Assembly: GCF_020740535.1 (NCBI RefSeq)
Contig: NZ_CP082362.1
Coordinates: 1,240,001 to 1,304,000, forward strand
DNA from: Streptomyces profundus
GTDB taxonomy: Bacteria; Actinomycetota; Actinomycetes; Streptomycetales; Streptomycetaceae
Reading direction: 5' to 3'
Length of the DNA: 64,000 bases
Position 1 is the first letter of the stretch, and every line of letters begins with the position of its first letter. The position numbers and the translations under genes were made by a program. Shown piece after piece: positions 53,371-62,894 of the stretch. The notes under the pieces are model-generated. The model did not search any database. It had not been told where the DNA came from and saw only the letters and a list, made by a program, of their open reading frames with translations.

Positions 53371-53420
53371 GGTGACAGGCAGCGACCGCGGGGGCGTTGA
53401 CGAGGGTCCGCCGTATACGT

Positions 53421-53433
53421 TTGACTGAGTCAA
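53421..53433. promoter_or_regulatory. MarR-type palindrome overlapping the start codon
   Basis: TTGACT-G-AGTCAA ends on the A of the ATG at 53433, and TATACG (53414-53419) just before it resembles a -10. A repressor here would block transcription or initiation of the MarR gene itself. Confidence 0.6.
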
Positions 53434-54509
53434 TGAACGGTGAAGCACTTGCGGAGGCCATCGGTGCCCTCAGGGAGTTCAACCGGGACTACACCCGTCT
53501 GATCGGCGCCCTCGACTACCGGCACCGGCTGGACACGCCGTACTCGCTGCCCGAGGCGCGCGTGCTCTACGAGTTGGCCGCGGGCCGCCGGGTGCCGGTC
53601 GGCTCGCTGCGGGAGCGGCTGGACATGGACGCCGGCCAGCTCAGCCGGCTGCTGACGCGCGCCGAGGCGGCCGGCCTGCTGGTCAGGGAGCGGGACGCGG
53701 ACGACGGCCGTCGGCAGCTGATCGCGCTCAGCGGCGCGGGCCGGGAGGCGGCGGCGCTGCTGGACCGCAGGTCGGACGAGGTCACCGGCGCCCTGGTGCG
53801 GCGGCTCTCGCCCGCCGAGCGGGACAGCCTGCTGGCCGCGCTGCGCACCCTGTCGCGGCTGCTCGGCCTGGCCGGGCGCCCCGCCGGCCCCCTCCGGCTC
53901 CGGCCGCCGGCGCCCGGCGAGTTGGGCTGGGTGGTGCAGCGGCACGGCGCGCTCTACGCGGCGGAGTACGGCTGGAACGGCGCCTTCGAGGCGCTGGTCG
54001 CCGAGGTCGTCGCCCGCTACGCCAAGCACCGCGACCCGGCCAGGGAGGCCGCCTGGATCGCCGAGTCGGACGGAGAACCCGTCGGCTCGGTCCTCTGCGT
54101 CGCCGACCAGCCGGACCGCCGGGACCAGCCGGACCAGCCGGACCAGCCGGACCAGCCGGACCAGCCGGACCAGCCGGACGACGCGGACGGTCCCGGGCGC
54201 TCCCGGGGGACCGCCCGGCTGCGCCTGCTGCTGGTCGAGCCGCACGCCAGGGGCCTGGGCATCGGCGCGGCGCTGACCGAGCGGTGTGTCGACTTCGCCA
54301 GGACCGCCGGATACGCGCGGCTGACCCTGTGGACCAACGAGTCCCTCGCCCACGCCCGGAGCATCTATCTGGCCGCCGGCTTCACCCTGACCGACAGCGC
54401 CCCCCACACCGCCTTCGGCCGCCCCGAGATCGGCCAGAACTGGACCCTCGACCTCAGCCGTCGACCTCGCCGGGAAGGGCCAGCTCCACCGCCGCCAGGA
54501 TCTCCGTGA
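53433..54509 (+). CDS. MarR-HTH/GNAT acetyltransferase bifunctional protein
   Basis: A 358-residue fusion: MarR winged helix (about 25-145, with LRERLDMDAGQLSRLLTRAEAAGLL and RERDADDGRRQLIALSGAG) and a C-terminal GNAT acetyltransferase (about 155-345; acetyl-CoA loop LLVEPHARGLGIGAALTERC). Residues 225-250 are a DQP tandem expansion between two core strands. It overlaps the following gene by 56 bp tail to tail. The start is near-leaderless. Confidence 0.93.
   Translation: MNGEALAEAIGALREFNRDYTRLIGALDYRHRLDTPYSLPEARVLYELAAGRRVPVGSLRERLDMDAGQLSRLLTRAEAAGLLVRERDADDGRRQLIALSGAGREAAALLDRRSDEVTGALVRRLSPAERDSLLAALRTLSRLLGLAGRPAGPLRLRPPAPGELGWVVQRHGALYAAEYGWNGAFEALVAEVVARYAKHRDPAREAAWIAESDGEPVGSVLCVADQPDRRDQPDQPDQPDQPDQPDQPDDADGPGRSRGTARLRLLLVEPHARGLGIGAALTERCVDFARTAGYARLTLWTNESLAHARSIYLAAGFTLTDSAPHTAFGRPEIGQNWTLDLSRRPRREGPAPPPPGSP
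54123..54176 (+). repeat. Six tandem copies of a 9-bp DQP repeat
   Basis: GACCAGCCG repeated six times without change inside the GNAT domain. One related copy lies just upstream. Pure repeats with no silent variation suggest recent expansion. Confidence 0.9.
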
Positions 54510-55702: not shown

Positions 55703-56725
55703 GTGAGCTACAAGGCCGAGTACATCTGGATCGACGGCACGGAGCCGACCGCGAAGCTCCGCTCCAAGACCAAGATCCTGGCGGACGGCACGGAGCCGCC
55801 GGAGTGGGGCTTCGACGGGTCCAGCACCAACCAGGCCGAGGGCCACGCCTCGGACTGCGTCCTCAAGCCCGTCGCCAGCTACCCGGACCCGATCCGCGGC
55901 GGCGCGCACCGGCTGGTGCTGTGCGAGGTCTACAACACGGGCGACGACACGCCCCACGCCTCCAACACCCGTGCGCTGCTGCGCCCGTTGGCCGAGCGGT
56001 TCGCGGCCCAGGAGCCGGTCTTCGGCATAGAGCAGGAGTACACCTTCTTCAAGGGCTCCCGCCCGCTCGGCTTCCCCGAGAACGGCTTCCCCGCGCCGCA
56101 GGGCGGCTACTACTGCGGCGTCGGCGCGGACGAGATCTACGGCCGGGAGATCGTCGAGGCGCATCTGGAGAACTGTCTCAAGGCCGGTCTCGGCATCTCC
56201 GGCATCAACGCCGAGGTCATGCCGGGCCAGTGGGAGTTCCAGGTCGGCCCGCTCTCCCCGCTGGAGGTCTCCGACCAGCTGTGGGTGGCCCGCTGGCTGC
56301 TCTACCGCACCGCCGAGGACTACGGCGTCTCCGCCACCCTGGACCCCAAGCCGGCCAAGGGCGACTGGAACGGCGCCGGCGCGCACACCAACTTCTCCAC
56401 CAAGGCGATGCGCGAGGGCTATGACGCGATCATCGCCGCCTGCGACGCCCTGGGCCTTGAGGGCAAGCCGTTGGAGCATGTGACCAACTACGGCGTGGGC
56501 GTCGAGGACCGGCTGACCGGCGCGCACGAGACCGCCCCCTGGAACGAGTACAGCTACGGCGTCTCCAACCGGGGCGCCTCCGTCCGCATCCCGTGGCAGG
56601 TGGAGCGGGACAAGAAGGGCTACATCGAGGACCGTCGCCCCAACGCCAACTGTGACCCGTATGTGGTGACCAGGCTGATGGTGGACACCTGCTGCACCGA
56701 ACTGGACAGGGCGGGCCTGGTCTGA
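55703..56725 (+). CDS. glnII: Glutamine synthetase type II (eukaryotic-like)
   Basis: A 340-residue GSII enzyme, as found in Streptomyces and rhizobia besides GlnA. Signatures WGFDGSSTNQAEG, FGIEQEYTFFKG and the GAGAHTNFSTKAMR ATP-binding region are present, as is NRGASVRIP. It is not adenylylated in known systems. GTG 55703 follows AAGGAG. It shares GlnR-type control with glnA. Confidence 0.98.
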   Translation: MSYKAEYIWIDGTEPTAKLRSKTKILADGTEPPEWGFDGSSTNQAEGHASDCVLKPVASYPDPIRGGAHRLVLCEVYNTGDDTPHASNTRALLRPLAERFAAQEPVFGIEQEYTFFKGSRPLGFPENGFPAPQGGYYCGVGADEIYGREIVEAHLENCLKAGLGISGINAEVMPGQWEFQVGPLSPLEVSDQLWVARWLLYRTAEDYGVSATLDPKPAKGDWNGAGAHTNFSTKAMREGYDAIIAACDALGLEGKPLEHVTNYGVGVEDRLTGAHETAPWNEYSYGVSNRGASVRIPWQVERDKKGYIEDRRPNANCDPYVVTRLMVDTCCTELDRAGLV

Positions 56726-56843: not shown

Positions 56844-57023
56844 ATGCCCGCGCGCCCCCTCACCCGGCGCACACGGCGCACACCGGGTGTACTCAGCACC
56901 ACCGCCCTCCCGGGGTCTCCCCCCGTTACGTTCGCATCGGGAACGCGACAGACTGTGGTCGCGGGTGGTCGCGGACGGAGCACCGCGCCGCACGGCGAGG
57001 TACGAAAGGGTTGGACAGGCACA

Positions 57024-58322
57024 ATGAACCGGTACCGGGCGCGAGACGGCCTGTTGGCGGCGGCACGCGGACTGCTGCTGATGGTGTTGACGATCGGCGC
57101 GTCGCTGCTGCTGTTCGTCCTGTTCGTGGTGTGCCTGGTCCTGGTGCCGCTGGGCGTCGGGCTGCTGGCCATGCCGGTGGTGATCGCCGCCATCCGGGCG
57201 CACGCCAACCTGCGCAGGAGGTACTCGGGCGACTGGTACGACATCACGATTCCGGTCGCCTACCGGCCGGTGCCGCACGATGCGCGCGGCGGGATCGCCG
57301 GCCAGGTCGACCGGGCGATCCGGCTGCTGAAGGACCCGGCCACCTGGCGCGACGGGCTGTGGCTGCTGCCCGACGCGGTCGTCGGCTTCACCCTGGCCAT
57401 GCTGCCGTTCATGCTGCTCGGCTACGGCCTCTGGGGTCCCGTCCTCGCGGCCGGCGTCTGGGTGCCCATCGTGAACGCGATGGGCACCTACTGGTGGGCC
57501 TTCGTCCCGGTGAGCAACCTGCTCACCGCCCTGCTGGCCGGCCTGATCGGCCTCCTGCTGCTGACCGCGGGGCTGCGGTACAACCCGCTCATCCTGCATG
57601 TGCACTTCCACTTCACCCGGGTGCTGATCGGCGCGCCGGAGAAGCAGCTGCTGGCGCAGCGGGTGGCCAGGCTCCAGGAGACCCGCCACGACGCGCTGGA
57701 CAACTCCGCGGCCGAACTCCGCCGCATCGAACGGGATCTGCACGACGGGGCGCAGGCCAGGCTGGTCGCGATGGGCATGAGCCTGGGCGCGGTCGAGGCG
57801 CTGATCGAGAAGGATCCCGACCAGGCCAAGAAGCTGCTGGCGCAGGCGCGTGCCAACTCGGCCGAGGCGCTCACCGAACTCCGCGACCTGGTGCGCGGCA
57901 TCCACCCGCCGGTGCTGGCCGAACGCGGCCTGGGCGACGCGGCCAGGGCGCTGGCGCTGCGGATGCAACTGCCGGTCGAGGTGGATGTGGAGCTGCCGGG
58001 GCGCCTCGACGAGTCGGTGGAGTCGGCCGCCTACTTCGCGATCAGCGAGGTGCTCACCAACGCGGCCAAGCACGCCCAGGCCGAACGCGCCTGGCTGGAC
58101 ATCTACTACAACCACAAGGAACACACCCTGCGGATCGCCGTCACCGACGACGGTCAGGGCGGGGCGACGCTGGAGGGCGGCAGCGGACTGCGTGGCCTCC
58201 AGCGCCGTCTGGGCGCCTTCGACGGGGTCCTCGCCGTCAGCAGCCCGGAGGGCGGCCCCACGCTGGTCACCATCGAGATCCCCTGCGCGCTGACCCAGCA
58301 GGGCCAGGTCAGGACGGACTGA
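57024..58322 (+). CDS. Sensor histidine kinase (HisKA_3 type)
   Basis: A 432-residue NarL-class sensor kinase. About four to five membrane helices in the first 190 residues, then DHp with phospho-acceptor His240 (ERDLHDGAQARL) and an ATPase domain with SEVLTNAAKHA and DDGQGG / GLRGLQRRL. The stimulus is unknown. ATG 57024. No response regulator gene lies next to it here; the next gene is a Ser/Thr kinase. Confidence 0.94.
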   Translation: MNRYRARDGLLAAARGLLLMVLTIGASLLLFVLFVVCLVLVPLGVGLLAMPVVIAAIRAHANLRRRYSGDWYDITIPVAYRPVPHDARGGIAGQVDRAIRLLKDPATWRDGLWLLPDAVVGFTLAMLPFMLLGYGLWGPVLAAGVWVPIVNAMGTYWWAFVPVSNLLTALLAGLIGLLLLTAGLRYNPLILHVHFHFTRVLIGAPEKQLLAQRVARLQETRHDALDNSAAELRRIERDLHDGAQARLVAMGMSLGAVEALIEKDPDQAKKLLAQARANSAEALTELRDLVRGIHPPVLAERGLGDAARALALRMQLPVEVDVELPGRLDESVESAAYFAISEVLTNAAKHAQAERAWLDIYYNHKEHTLRIAVTDDGQGGATLEGGSGLRGLQRRLGAFDGVLAVSSPEGGPTLVTIEIPCALTQQGQVRTD

Positions 58323-58496
58323 CGCCGGCCCTCCCCCGGACGAGGCGACGCACCCGGCCACCAGCGGAAGCCACCGACCGACCGGTCAACTGTGCCGGTA
58401 GCGGCGGGTTCTGTGGAGATTCCTCGCGCTGCGGAGTCGGACCGTTACCATCGCTTGGCGACGGACGGGCGCGGTGGCCGTCCAGGAGGAGGCGGC

Positions 58497-60428
58497 GTGG
58501 CCGAGACGCGACCGGGTGGCGCCTCAGGGCCCGCGCCCCTGGGCCCCGGGGACCCGAGGGACATCGGCCCCTACCGGCTGCTGGGGCGGCTGGGCGCCGG
58601 CGGGATGGGCCAGGTCTATCTGGGTCGGTCGATCGGCGGCCGGATGGTGGCGCTCAAGGTGGTGCGCGGCGATCTGGCGGCCGAGCCCGAGTTCCGCCGG
58701 CGGTTCCGGGCCGAGGTCGAGGCGGCGCGCCGGGTCGGCGGCCCGTGGACGGCGCCGGTGCTGGACAGCGACACCGAGTCGCCCGTGCCCTGGGTGGCCA
58801 CCGGCTATGTGGCCGGCCCGCCGCTCACCAGGGTCGTGGAGTCGCTGCACGGTCCCCTGCCCGAGGGTTCGCTGTGAGGGCTGGCATCGGGCCTGGCGCA
58901 GGCCCTGCGGGACATCCACGCGGTCGGGCTGATCCACCGCGATCTGAAGCCGTCGAACGTGATGGTGACGCTGGAGGGGCCGAAGGTCATCGACTTCGGG
59001 ATCGCCCGGGCCGTGGACGCCAGCGTGGTGACGCGCACCGGGTCGATGGTGGGCTCCCCCGGCTACATGCCGCCTGAGCAGATCAGGGGCGAGCCGCTGA
59101 GCGGCGCCAGCGACGTGTTCGCGCTGGGCGCGCTGCTGGCGTACGCGGCGACCGGACAGCACGCGTTCAGCTGGGACGGCGCGGCCACCCACACCGTGCT
59201 CTATCGCGTGCTCCACGAGGAGCCCGCCCTCGGGCCCGACGCTGGTCCGTTGACGGGGGAGCTGCGGGCGCTGGTGGCGCGCTGCCTGGCCAGGGACGCG
59301 GGGGCGCGGCCGACGCTGGCCGAGATCGGGCCGCTGGCCAGGGAGCGGGTCGGCGCGGACTTCTGGCTGCCGGCGTCGCTGACCGCGCGGCTGGGCCAGG
59401 ACGCCGCCGCCCTGCTGGAGTTCGACGAACCGCCGGCCGTCCCGCCCCCTGGCCCGGCCCCTTCGACCGGGCCCGCCCCCTCCGCCGCCCCCGTCACCGT
59501 TCCGGTTCCCGTCCCCGGGAAGCGGCGGCGCGCGGTGCTGGCGGCCGTGGCGGGGGCGGTGGCCGTCGGGGTCGCCCTACCGCTGATCGCGCTGGCCAAC
59601 TCCGGTGGTGACGACGGCGGTTCGGACGGCGCCGGCGGCGACCCCGCCGAGGCGCCACTGGCCGACCTGCTGCCGGCCGAGGTGCGGGCGGCCGGCGAGC
59701 TCACGGTCTGGGTCGCCGAACGGCACAACCCGGTGCTCTTCGAGGAGGAGGGTGCGCCGGTGGGTTTCGAGGTGGACCTCGCCGTGGCGATGGCCCAACG
59801 GCTGGGCGTCGAGCCGGTGTTCACCCTGGTCGACGACCGGCCGACCGCCGTCGACGGCGCACTGCGCAACAGCGCGGAGGCCCCGGGGCACGTGGTGATG
59901 TCGGGGTTCACCGACGCCCCGCAGCGGCGCGCGGAGTTGGGCCTCGACTTCGTCAACCACTTCGCCGACGGCTTCGCCGTGCTGAGCGACGATCCCGGCC
60001 GCTCCGGCGAGTTGGGCCTGCTCTGCGGGCTGCGGGTCACCTCCTACGACGACGAGTTCCTCCATGAGGTGATCGAGGAGAACACCGGGGGCTGCGCGGA
60101 GCCGCCCACGTGGCTGCCCGTCCCCAGCAGGGACGACATGGCGGAGGCCATCGCCTTGGACGAGGCGGACGTCGCGGTGCTGCTCTACTCGCAGGGCGCC
60201 CGCTACGCCCACGAACACGGCGACCTGGGGCTGTCCGTCGCGCTGGACTCCGCGGAGAAGGGATTCCGCGGCATCGGCGTCCCCCCGGACCAGCCGGCAC
60301 TGCGCGACGCCCTGGCCGCGGCCGTCGACCTGCTGATCCAGGACGGCACCTACGCCACCCTCCTCGACCGCTGGGGCATCCCCGAATCCGGCATCGGCAC
60401 CGCGTCCGTCAACGGCGGAAGCGGCTGA
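58497..60428 (+). pseudogene. Receptor-like Ser/Thr protein kinase with solute-binding ectodomain, split by in-frame TGA
   Basis: GTG 58497 with GGAGGAGG opens a Hanks-type kinase: glycine loop GAGGMGQV, Lys54 in VALKVV. Codon 127 is TGA (58875-58877). The same frame then continues without another stop to 60428 with the catalytic loop HRDLKPSN (Asp149), DFG, a Pro-rich linker, one membrane helix (about 341-363) and a C-terminal SBP_bac_3-like periplasmic-binding domain (about 395-630). Without read-through, neither half makes a working kinase. It may be a recent nonsense mutation, a sequencing error (for example TGG) or true read-through; the intact frame speaks for a very recent event. Confidence 0.85.
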
Positions 60429-60476: not shown

Positions 60477-61173
60477 TCAGACCACCGCCCCCGGAAGGTC
60501 CACCACCGTGAACGTCTCCAGGCGAGTGATGAGTTGACTCGCCCTGAGCCAGCGGACACGAGTGTCGTCATACGCCACACCCGCCGCGTCAACCGCGACG
60601 GGCAACGGGAACCCCGGCCGGTAGAGCGCGGCCCACACGCCGACGATGGAGAACTGCCAGACTCGAAGCGCCACATACCGTCGGGCCAGATGGGGACAGA
60701 ACCGCACCGCCTTCACCGCACACGGGAGACAGACGGGCGGGTGCGAAGTGAGCAGCTCCTCGGGCCAGGACGCCGGGTCGTCAGGGTCCTCACCGAGCAG
60801 CCAGAGCACACCGTCCTCGCTCTCGTTCAGCCGGCTCGGCGCACACCTGACACAACACCTTGCGCATGGCCCTGCGCTGACGCAGGCCGTGAACCCTGCC
60901 GAACTCCGGCCGCCCCCGCCCCGGACGGGAACCGATGCGCGACCACAGAACGCCGTCCTCGTCACGGTCCTGAAGGATCTCGTCCGCGTACCCGATGCCC
61001 CCCGCCCGGCAGACGACCACCGCGTCCACGTCGCGCTCCTCGCTCCACTGGGCGATGTACGGCACGATGTCGGGCCGGGGAAGCGTGCCAAGGGGCGGCC
61101 CGTTCACGCCACCCCCTCCGGCGGTGCTTCGGCCCCGATCGGCGTACGACAGGTCGGCCCTCAACTCATGCAT
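60477..61173 (-). pseudogene. Accessory-region hypothetical protein, frameshifted
   Basis: Two overlapping frames join into one protein. ATG 61173 gives MHELRADLSYADRGRS through PRPDIVPYIAQWSEERD and RQRRAMRKVLCQVCAEPAE; near 60825-60835 a one-base shift is needed to continue into EDGVLWLLGEDPDDPASWPEELL and on to the TGA at 60477. The repaired product (about 230 residues) has Cys pairs (CQVC, CLPC) that may bind zinc. I recall similar proteins next to GntR genes in integrative elements; function unknown. Confidence 0.75.
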
Positions 61174-61300
61174 GATGGGGTCACCCCTTTCGAGGGATCA
61201 GGGGGCGCGGTGTTCGCTTTGGCCGGCAGTCACCGCGCCCCACTTGCGCGCGAGCGCGCAGCTTGGCTTGTCCCGGACTGTTCCTCCGCCGAACGCAGCT

Positions 61301-61348
61301 CTAGAGTGTTCTAGAGCACTACGCGAAGTCAAGACTGTGCTAGAGCAC
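61301..61348. promoter_or_regulatory. CTAGAG-based GntR operators
   Basis: CTAGAG occurs at 61301, 61311 and 61340. AGTGTTCTAGAGCACT (61305-61320) and GTGC-TAGA-GCAC (61337-61348) are near-perfect dyads that end just before ATG 61350. The placement indicates autoregulation of the GntR gene. Confidence 0.7.
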
Positions 61349-61349
61349 T

Positions 61350-62102
61350 ATGGAGCGGAGGGTCATGGTCGAGGAGGCTCAGGCGCTGGCGCCGTACAAG
61401 CGCATCGCCGCGAAGATCCGACGGCAGATCGAGCAGGGAGCGCTGCGTCCCGGCGACAAGGTGCCGTCAGTGCGGGAGATCGAGCGCACCGAAGGCGTCT
61501 CGACCGCCACTGCGACCCGAGTCGCGGCGGTGCTGCGGAGCGAGGGACTCGCGGAGTCGGTGCCCGGCATCGGCACCATCGTCACGGCACGGCCGAGGCA
61601 GACCACCGGCCCGGACCGGCTCGCCCTGCTCAGGTCCGGCGGGGACGGATTCCGGTCGGGCGAGGAGGCCAAGGTGCTGGGAGCGGAGTTGGTCCCGGCG
61701 CCCGACACCGTCGCGAAGGCTCTCGGCGTTCCCGAGGGCGTGGCCGTGGTGCAGCGCGAGCGGGTGTACACCGACGGCCAGGGTGTGGTCGCCCTCTCCG
61801 CCTCGTGGCTGCCGGGGCCGTTCGCCGAGTCGGCACCGGAGTTGTTGGATGTCACCCCGCTGCCGACGATGACCTTCGGCCTGATCGAGGAACGGACCGG
61901 GCGCCGCGCTGTCCGCCGCCGGGATGTGGTGGCGATCAGGCCCGCCCCGGATGACGTCGCCGAGATCCTCGAAGTACCCGCTGGCACGCCGGTGTTGACC
62001 ATGACGAACTGTTACTGGGATCAGCACGGGGACGTGACCGAGTACGCGATCGACTACTTGGGAAGCGGTCGCGAACTCACTGCCGACCACGAGTTGGCCT
62101 GA
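61350..62102 (+). CDS. GntR/UTRA-family regulator 1
   Basis: A 250-residue regulator: winged helix (about 15-80: YKRIAAKIRRQIEQGALRPGDKVPSVREIERTEGVSTATATRVAAVLRSEG split by normal loops) and UTRA ligand domain (about 105-245). This KorSA/HutC type controls transfer or integration in actinomycete elements. ATG 61350 lies on the operator; ATG 61365 is an alternative start. Followed 24 bp later by another GntR gene. Confidence 0.92.
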   Translation: MERRVMVEEAQALAPYKRIAAKIRRQIEQGALRPGDKVPSVREIERTEGVSTATATRVAAVLRSEGLAESVPGIGTIVTARPRQTTGPDRLALLRSGGDGFRSGEEAKVLGAELVPAPDTVAKALGVPEGVAVVQRERVYTDGQGVVALSASWLPGPFAESAPELLDVTPLPTMTFGLIEERTGRRAVRRRDVVAIRPAPDDVAEILEVPAGTPVLTMTNCYWDQHGDVTEYAIDYLGSGRELTADHELA

Positions 62103-62126
62103 CGCCCCGAGCCAAGGATGCCCTGA

Positions 62127-62894
62127 ATGCCGATGCCCGATGAGCGGGCCGCCGATCGGCGGCCTCTTCACGAACGGATCGCTGCCGACCTGCGCGACGA
62201 CATACTGTCGGGGACTCCCGCGCCCGGCGCGAGCCTGCCTTCCACGCTCCGCTTGCGCGAACGTTTCGGGGCCTCCAACGCCACGATCCAGAAGGCGTTG
62301 CAACTCCTGAAGGACGAGGGCCTGGTCGTGGGGCGAGCCGGAGCCGCCGTCACCGTTCGAGAGCACCGCCAAGGGACGGTGCGGCCCGCCGACTTCGGGA
62401 GGCCGGTCGAACAGGGCAAGCCCTATCGGTGGCTCACGGAGGCCAGCGGGAGAGGCAGGAAGGGCAGCGCCAAACTGCTGGCCGTCTCAGAGGTGCGCCC
62501 GCCTCGGGATGTGGCGGCCTGTCTCGAACTGCCCGACGACGGAACGGCGATCGTGCGCCGCCAGGTGCTCTCGCTCAACGGCGAACCCGTCGAGTTGGTG
62601 CACTCCTACTACCCGCTCTCCCTTGCCGCCGGCACTCCACTGGCGGGCTCACGCAAGATCCGTGGGGGAACCCCGACCCTGCTGTCGGAGCTGGGCCATC
62701 CCCCTCAGCTCACCGTCGATCGGGTATCGGCGCGGGTGCCGACCCAGGAGCAGTACGAGCTCCTCGAACTCCCCACCGACCTCCCCGTTCTACGTACGCT
62801 CCGCGTGGTCTACAGCGAGGGCGAGCGTCCGATCGAGGCCACTGTGATGGTGAAGGCGGGACATCTGTACGAGCTTCAGTACGAGTTCGAATAG
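62127..62894 (+). CDS. GntR/UTRA-family regulator 2
   Basis: A 255-residue GntR/UTRA protein: HTH at about 13-75 (LHERIAADLRDDILSGTPAPGASLPS, RFGASNATIQKALQLLKDEGLV) and a UTRA domain with VELVHSYYPLSLAAGTPLA. It is only distantly similar to regulator 1, so the pair is not a recent duplication. Probably co-transcribed with it. Confidence 0.92.
   Translation: MPMPDERAADRRPLHERIAADLRDDILSGTPAPGASLPSTLRLRERFGASNATIQKALQLLKDEGLVVGRAGAAVTVREHRQGTVRPADFGRPVEQGKPYRWLTEASGRGRKGSAKLLAVSEVRPPRDVAACLELPDDGTAIVRRQVLSLNGEPVELVHSYYPLSLAAGTPLAGSRKIRGGTPTLLSELGHPPQLTVDRVSARVPTQEQYELLELPTDLPVLRTLRVVYSEGERPIEATVMVKAGHLYELQYEFE

Follow-up and report, generated by a model that had tools for sequence, protein, structure and literature searches.

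A single in-frame TGA, probably a recent nonsense mutation, in a kinase-solute-binding receptor gene of Streptomyces profundus

Fusions of a Ser/Thr kinase with an extracellular solute-binding protein (SBP) domain are on record. One with a bacterial extracellular solute-binding domain of the Glu/Gln type was listed for S. coelicolor in 2005 (gi 21223285, PMC1262709), and SBP kinases such as MSMEG_1200 are named in a paper of 2018, according to which InterPro has a further 260 (PMC6069109). The gene that we discuss here is, going by the description of the S. coelicolor entry, which is listed as a protein, the same kind of fusion, and it has its kinase and SBP parts on one polypeptide as in the MSMEG_1200-type SBP kinases (PMC6069109). 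The GlnH-GlnX-PknG system of mycobacteria and corynebacteria is comparable in that a Ser/Thr kinase is under the control of an amino-acid-binding protein outside the cell (PMC6069109, PMC9769921), but there the components are three separate proteins and the kinase has no membrane helix (PMC6069109). An earlier note on this DNA had taken it to be uncommon for a Ser/Thr kinase to carry a solute-binding-like domain outside the cell. That view does not hold, as in addition to the 2005 listing there are three such frames in this genome, and 45 of the 119 best listed homologues carry PF00497.

With regard to named families, the two pieces of the gene were scored apart against the NCBIfam model StpK7MSMEG_1200 and gave 125 bits for the C-terminal piece and 39 for the N-lobe, far under the cut-off of 900, so the gene is not filed in that family. 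AfsK (NCBIfam NF053615) was considered and rejected, the pieces scored apart having 120.9 and 130.9 bits against an equivalog cut-off of 1300. As both models are so far from their cut-offs, we call the gene no more than a kinase-SBP fusion whose frame is broken. The S. triticirhizae orthologue has the same neighbours and architecture; unlike our query it has no internal stop, and has Trp at the column concerned. A database protein, P0003, is 89% identical to that orthologue.

In-frame stops in bacterial genes are reported by Belinky et al. (2021) to be common and short-lived (PMC7918605). The present stop is likewise in a gene under purifying selection and fits the short-lived stops of that paper, but it is known from one genome only and so falls outside the paper's filter for stops shared between species.

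The frame and its interruption

The window, by which we mean the whole stretch of 64,000 nucleotides analysed, has on its plus strand a frame of 643 codons plus terminal stop, from 58497 to 60428. Its translation has a single internal stop, a TGA at codon 127, between the kinase N-lobe and the catalytic loop, and on this point translation and Pfam bear out what the earlier note had described. The features of the frame and its conserved neighbours are given in Table 1.

Table 1. Features of the interrupted frame and of the surrounding locus (window positions)
Feature	Position	Strand	Remarks
Glutamine synthetase	55703..56725	+	conserved neighbourhood
Sensor histidine kinase (HisKA_3)	56844..58322	+	upstream; conserved neighbourhood
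Ribosome-binding site, purine-rich, AGGAGGAGG	58484..58492	+	4 bases 5' of GTG start; from reading the sequence
GTG start	58497	+	
Codons 1-126: N-terminal leader and kinase N-lobe (glycine loop, Lys54)	58497..58874	+	expected to be the sole product if ribosomes halt at the TGA
In-frame TGA, codon 127	58875..58877	+	Trp in 73/119 best listed homologues
Remaining kinase domain: HRD (codons 147-149), DFG (166-168), C-lobe	58878..59327	+	
Predicted hairpin, 7 bp, 3-base loop	58889..58905	+	18 nt 3' of TGA
Hydrophobic stretch, probable single transmembrane helix (codons 346-367)	59532..59597	+	from reading the translation
Predicted extracellular solute-binding domain, SBP_bac_3 (PF00497)	59700..60377	+	Pfam match
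Normal stop codon of frame	60426..60428	+	
PI-PLC-like gene (PF16670)	match from 63113		profile match; neighbourhood search

The glycine loop, the lysine (K54), HRD (H147-R148-D149) and DFG (D166-F167-G168) are all in frame. The Pfam kinase match, scored across the stop, has 123.3 bits over positions 1-257 of 263 with the flag '1 TGA', and passes the gathering score of 31.7; taken separately, the C-terminal piece has 89.6 bits, and the N-lobe piece has 19.2 and is under the gathering score. The SBP_bac_3 match (51.8 bits, gathering score 26.4) lies downstream of the putative membrane helix, which was placed by reading. The solute-binding part has a weak resemblance to amino-acid-binding proteins, and its best solved relative (E 1.8e-6) is an ancestral reconstruction. 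With the TGA at codon 127 the kinase-SBP_bac_3 fusion does not lie in one uninterrupted frame, and the protein database entry from this locus (P0002) covers only the 494-residue downstream piece. A chance open frame is ruled out by the uninterrupted S. triticirhizae relative (L026), which is 72% identical to the query over its full length.

The intact protein would be a receptor that crosses the membrane once. Its Hanks-type Ser/Thr kinase would lie in the cytoplasm and be joined by a Pro-rich linker to the single helix, with the family-3 solute-binding domain outside the cell. With the stop in place, ribosomes starting at the GTG at 58497 would end after 126 residues, and the product would be an N-lobe without catalytic loop, DFG, membrane anchor or sensor. 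Given the parts that are missing, and what is established of kinase anatomy, no kinase activity is to be expected of it, and the full receptor would not be made in meaningful amounts.

Codon 127 in relatives and paralogues

In a search with the read-through translation as query the best 120 of 7645 database proteins were listed, and 119 of them were aligned after leaving out P0002, the gene's own piece. The alignment of homologues at codon 127, which the earlier note had put forward as a check, was thus carried out, and an ordinary residue is found there: Trp in 73 of these 119 best listed homologues, Arg in 27, Leu in 10, His in 3, Val and Asn in 2 each, and Thr and Tyr in 1 each, with Cys in none of the 119. 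Trp is present in 57 of the 60 closest of the listed homologues, and in all 45 of those listed for which the precomputed domains include both the kinase and PF00497.

A protein database is incapable of showing an in-frame stop, and comparison at the DNA level therefore weighs more. The whole frame was searched against 61 genomes, and at E 1e-100 or better there were nine matching places in six genomes. Only the window's own has the stop, which is absent from the other eight (three paralogues in the same genome and five places in other genomes). Four relatives aligned codon by codon each have a sense codon at 127, and the 16 frames that were compared, two of them paralogues from the same genome, are all uninterrupted and have Trp opposite the window's stop. 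A DNA search of 392 genomes in the genus found a match of 1e-125 or better in 7, including the window's own; for 12 of its loci the check consisted solely of a BLAST of the open frames. The genome comparison had one genome per species. Matches were found in 93 plasmid records, none spanning 80% of the query; the 20 plasmid matches listed are 64-72% identical, and cover either the kinase part or under half of the query.

The order glutamine synthetase, histidine kinase, kinase-SBP gene and PI-PLC-like gene is the same by tblastn in S. sedi and S. zhaozhouensis. S. triticirhizae also has this order, the sequence taken from it including only part of the glutamine synthetase gene, at its edge. The shared neighbourhood makes the copies in these three species true orthologues, and that of S. 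sedi has its kinase part intact in the ORF list. The gene thus has a disabling stop where orthologues at the same locus are intact, as is found for pseudogenes.

The copy in Streptomyces specialis (L022, 3635-5565) has its kinase and solute-binding domain in two different frames, perhaps because of a frameshift in the linker or of a sequencing error.

The age of the stop and its possible explanations

The query agrees with all 76 of the kinase columns that are conserved at 97% or more in the 119 best listed homologues, and there is no other lesion at conserved kinase positions; the lesion is therefore either young or false. At the kinase columns conserved at 90% or more it departs at 3 of 114, and in a leave-one-out comparison 75 of the 119 homologues depart at 3 or fewer. 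The earlier note had described both sides of the stop as well conserved, which is correct for the kinase. It does not extend to the solute-binding part, where only 22 of 256 columns are conserved at 90% or more among the 45 PF00497 proteins; the query departs at 2 of these 22.

We estimate that ten neutral replacements would spare all 76 columns (of 290) with a probability of 0.048, so that most of the 30 kinase replacements on the query branch must predate the stop, if it is real. The ratio of replacement to silent changes in the kinase shows a borderline difference, being 30:22 on the query branch and 20:33 on that of S. triticirhizae (Fisher p 0.051, or 0.041 with one outgroup, uncorrected). 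For the N-lobe alone it is 11:13 against 5:12 (p 0.34, uncorrected), and for the kinase after the stop 19:9 against 15:21, with a p of 0.046 that is uncorrected and comes from several regions and outgroups tried. There is no excess in the solute-binding part (21:22 against 25:22, p 0.83), and this flat ratio is unlike what would be expected for long decay of the whole gene.

We consider it probable that the TGA is a recent nonsense mutation in one of the three kinase-SBP genes of the genome, and that the receptor is not made. The other two genes of this architecture are uninterrupted, with frames at 2666308 and 4609178 (kinase and SBP places at 2666365 and 2667652, and at 4610288 and 4609223), and the loss may be tolerated because these two remain. 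If the stop is real, one of the three receptors of this kind has been lost naturally, which hints at redundancy. The earlier note had named inactivation, base-calling error and programmed read-through as possible explanations. Recent inactivation fits best and error stands as an alternative. Programmed read-through of a conserved stop is not supported, as the stop is absent from every relative examined at the DNA level. The case is most likely ordinary in kind, with loss of function likelier than a new mechanism; an inactivated or mis-sequenced copy matters mainly for annotation, and makes the locus doubtful in counts of intact kinases.

The main rival is a base-calling or assembly error, in which case one base of the deposited sequence is wrong and the gene codes for an ordinary receptor kinase without interruption. 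We think this unlikely, but it has to be taken seriously, as the only lesion is one codon and the rest of the kinase is maintained, just as it would be if a single base of an intact gene had been misread; furthermore no same-species copy was seen in the searches made. However the assembly is a single contig of 7.65 Mb with a completeness of 100, and stops of this kind are rare in it. Of the 46 kinase places in the genome, 41 of which are over the cut-off, only the window's own has a stop, and there is none in its 150 scored ABC-ATPase places (332 candidates) or 8 SBP_bac_3 places. Codon usage was scanned over 864 kb, or 11% of the 7.65 Mb, of which 464 kb surround the window and 400 kb lie elsewhere. 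At 10 in-frame stops the sequence looked coding-like to either side. Nine of these have a start codon 2-19 codons downstream and look like ordinary gene junctions, and the window's TGA is the only one in the 864 kb with no start codon in the next 25 codons. (A cruder scan, which had placed the window's stop second of 5123, was swamped by TAG triplets that are probably antisense shadows, and is superseded.) These counts indicate that substitution errors that make stops are rare in the assembly. The scan also bears on the suggestion that the TGA is leaky. On this reading the near-cognate tRNA-Trp, or some other tRNA, would occasionally decode the UGA, so that small amounts of the complete kinase are made and expression is perhaps held down. 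That TGA is reassigned or suppressed throughout the genome is rejected, there being no other such start-less stop in the 864 kb. In favour of leakiness at this one site, dN/dS between the query and the S. triticirhizae orthologue is about 0.30 for kinase and SBP alike, indicating purifying selection, and bacterial in-frame stops are described as widespread and mostly in genes with dN/dS below 1 (PMC7918605). However the low dN/dS is dominated by the time before the lesion, the filter used in PMC7918605 calls for the same stop in orthologues of at least two species, and here the eight other places, the four codon-aligned relatives and the 16 compared frames are free of it; we regard leaky read-through as improbable. 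A literature search gave no paper with a title on UGA readthrough at tryptophan in Streptomyces. If a full-length product existed, the gene would lend itself well to testing UGA read-through, or misplaced selenocysteine insertion, in a Streptomyces. It is scarcely credible that the locus is two genes, one for a short N-lobe protein and one for a separately started membrane protein with a sensor domain. There are 516 open codons downstream, with the solute-binding domain preserved, but the stop splits one domain, as in none of the 16 compared relatives, and the two-gene reading was rejected because there is no ATG, GTG or TTG in the 25 codons after the TGA, the first being the GTG at 58959, before which no purine-rich ribosome-binding site is apparent by eye. 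For the same reasons re-initiation after the stop is unlikely.

Insertion of selenocysteine at the UGA is very improbable, although the genome probably has the means. It has a tRNA-Sec gene (selC; 69.8 bits against the Rfam gathering score of 47, ARAGORN anticodon TCA) and, 1.4 kb from it, SelB (252.2 against the NCBIfam cut-off of 242.25), the locus being at 7053783-7056312 of the genome contig, so UGA can probably be decoded as selenocysteine in this organism. The predicted hairpin, with G first in its loop, has the spacing and constraints given in PMC13188914. However nearly all selenoproteins are said in that source to have Cys homologues, and, as noted above, Cys is not found at this column in the best listed homologues. 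The hairpin is present in folds of 40, 56 and 60 nt but vanishes in the 50-nt fold, its loop lacks the usual G[G/U], its energy z-scores are only -1.0 to -0.2, and 30 of 200 shuffled sequences reach as good a fold at 40 nt. As a background we took 1240 ordinary Trp codons of the genome, with the printed limits (loop of 9 nt or less), and this SECIS-like geometry proved to be common. At 40 nt it follows 195 of the 1240, 25 of them with a stem of at least 7 bp, and in any of the four fold lengths it follows 416, of which 61 have a stem of at least 7 bp. A stem of at least 7 bp in the 40-, 56- and 60-nt folds together, as in the window, is found after 14 of the 1240; at about 1% this is mildly unusual, for a combination examined post hoc. 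The geometry is absent at 40 nt from all 18 sites in the loci of 16 relatives and paralogues, and present in two at 56 nt. When the genome was searched for formate dehydrogenase (TIGR01591), the 11 places found were all short of the cut-off and free of stops, so no natural selenoprotein came from this search. The hairpin controls and the missing Cys together make selenocysteine unlikely. It is equally far-fetched that a nonsense UGA at a Trp column has been rescued by a fortuitous SECIS-like hairpin to give a selenium-gated receptor kinase; if that were so, selenium would by accident control a gene that lies apart from the redox functions of selenoproteins.

Evolution of the solute-binding domain and of the locus

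By sequence comparison the solute-binding domain is evolving much faster than the kinase. By simple counting dN/dS is about 0.6-0.8 for this domain (59649-60416) in five of six pairs, the sixth being the query and S. triticirhizae with 0.30, against 0.16-0.30 for the kinase. When the query or the S. triticirhizae protein is compared with those of S. sedi and S. zhaozhouensis, identity is 49-52% in the solute-binding domain and 81-85% in the kinase.

The kinase and PI-PLC-like genes of the window are separated by about 2.5 kb (60480-62894), with two GntR/UTRA regulators and a minus-strand frame that has no Pfam match. None of the three was found in the S. triticirhizae, S. sedi and S. zhaozhouensis loci, and for this reason the segment looks like an insertion. 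Further upstream, at 53397-54509, the window has a gene for a MarR and GNAT acetyltransferase protein, with a short Asp-Gln-Pro repeat (DQPDQPDQP...) at 54123-54190, inside the acetyltransferase region.
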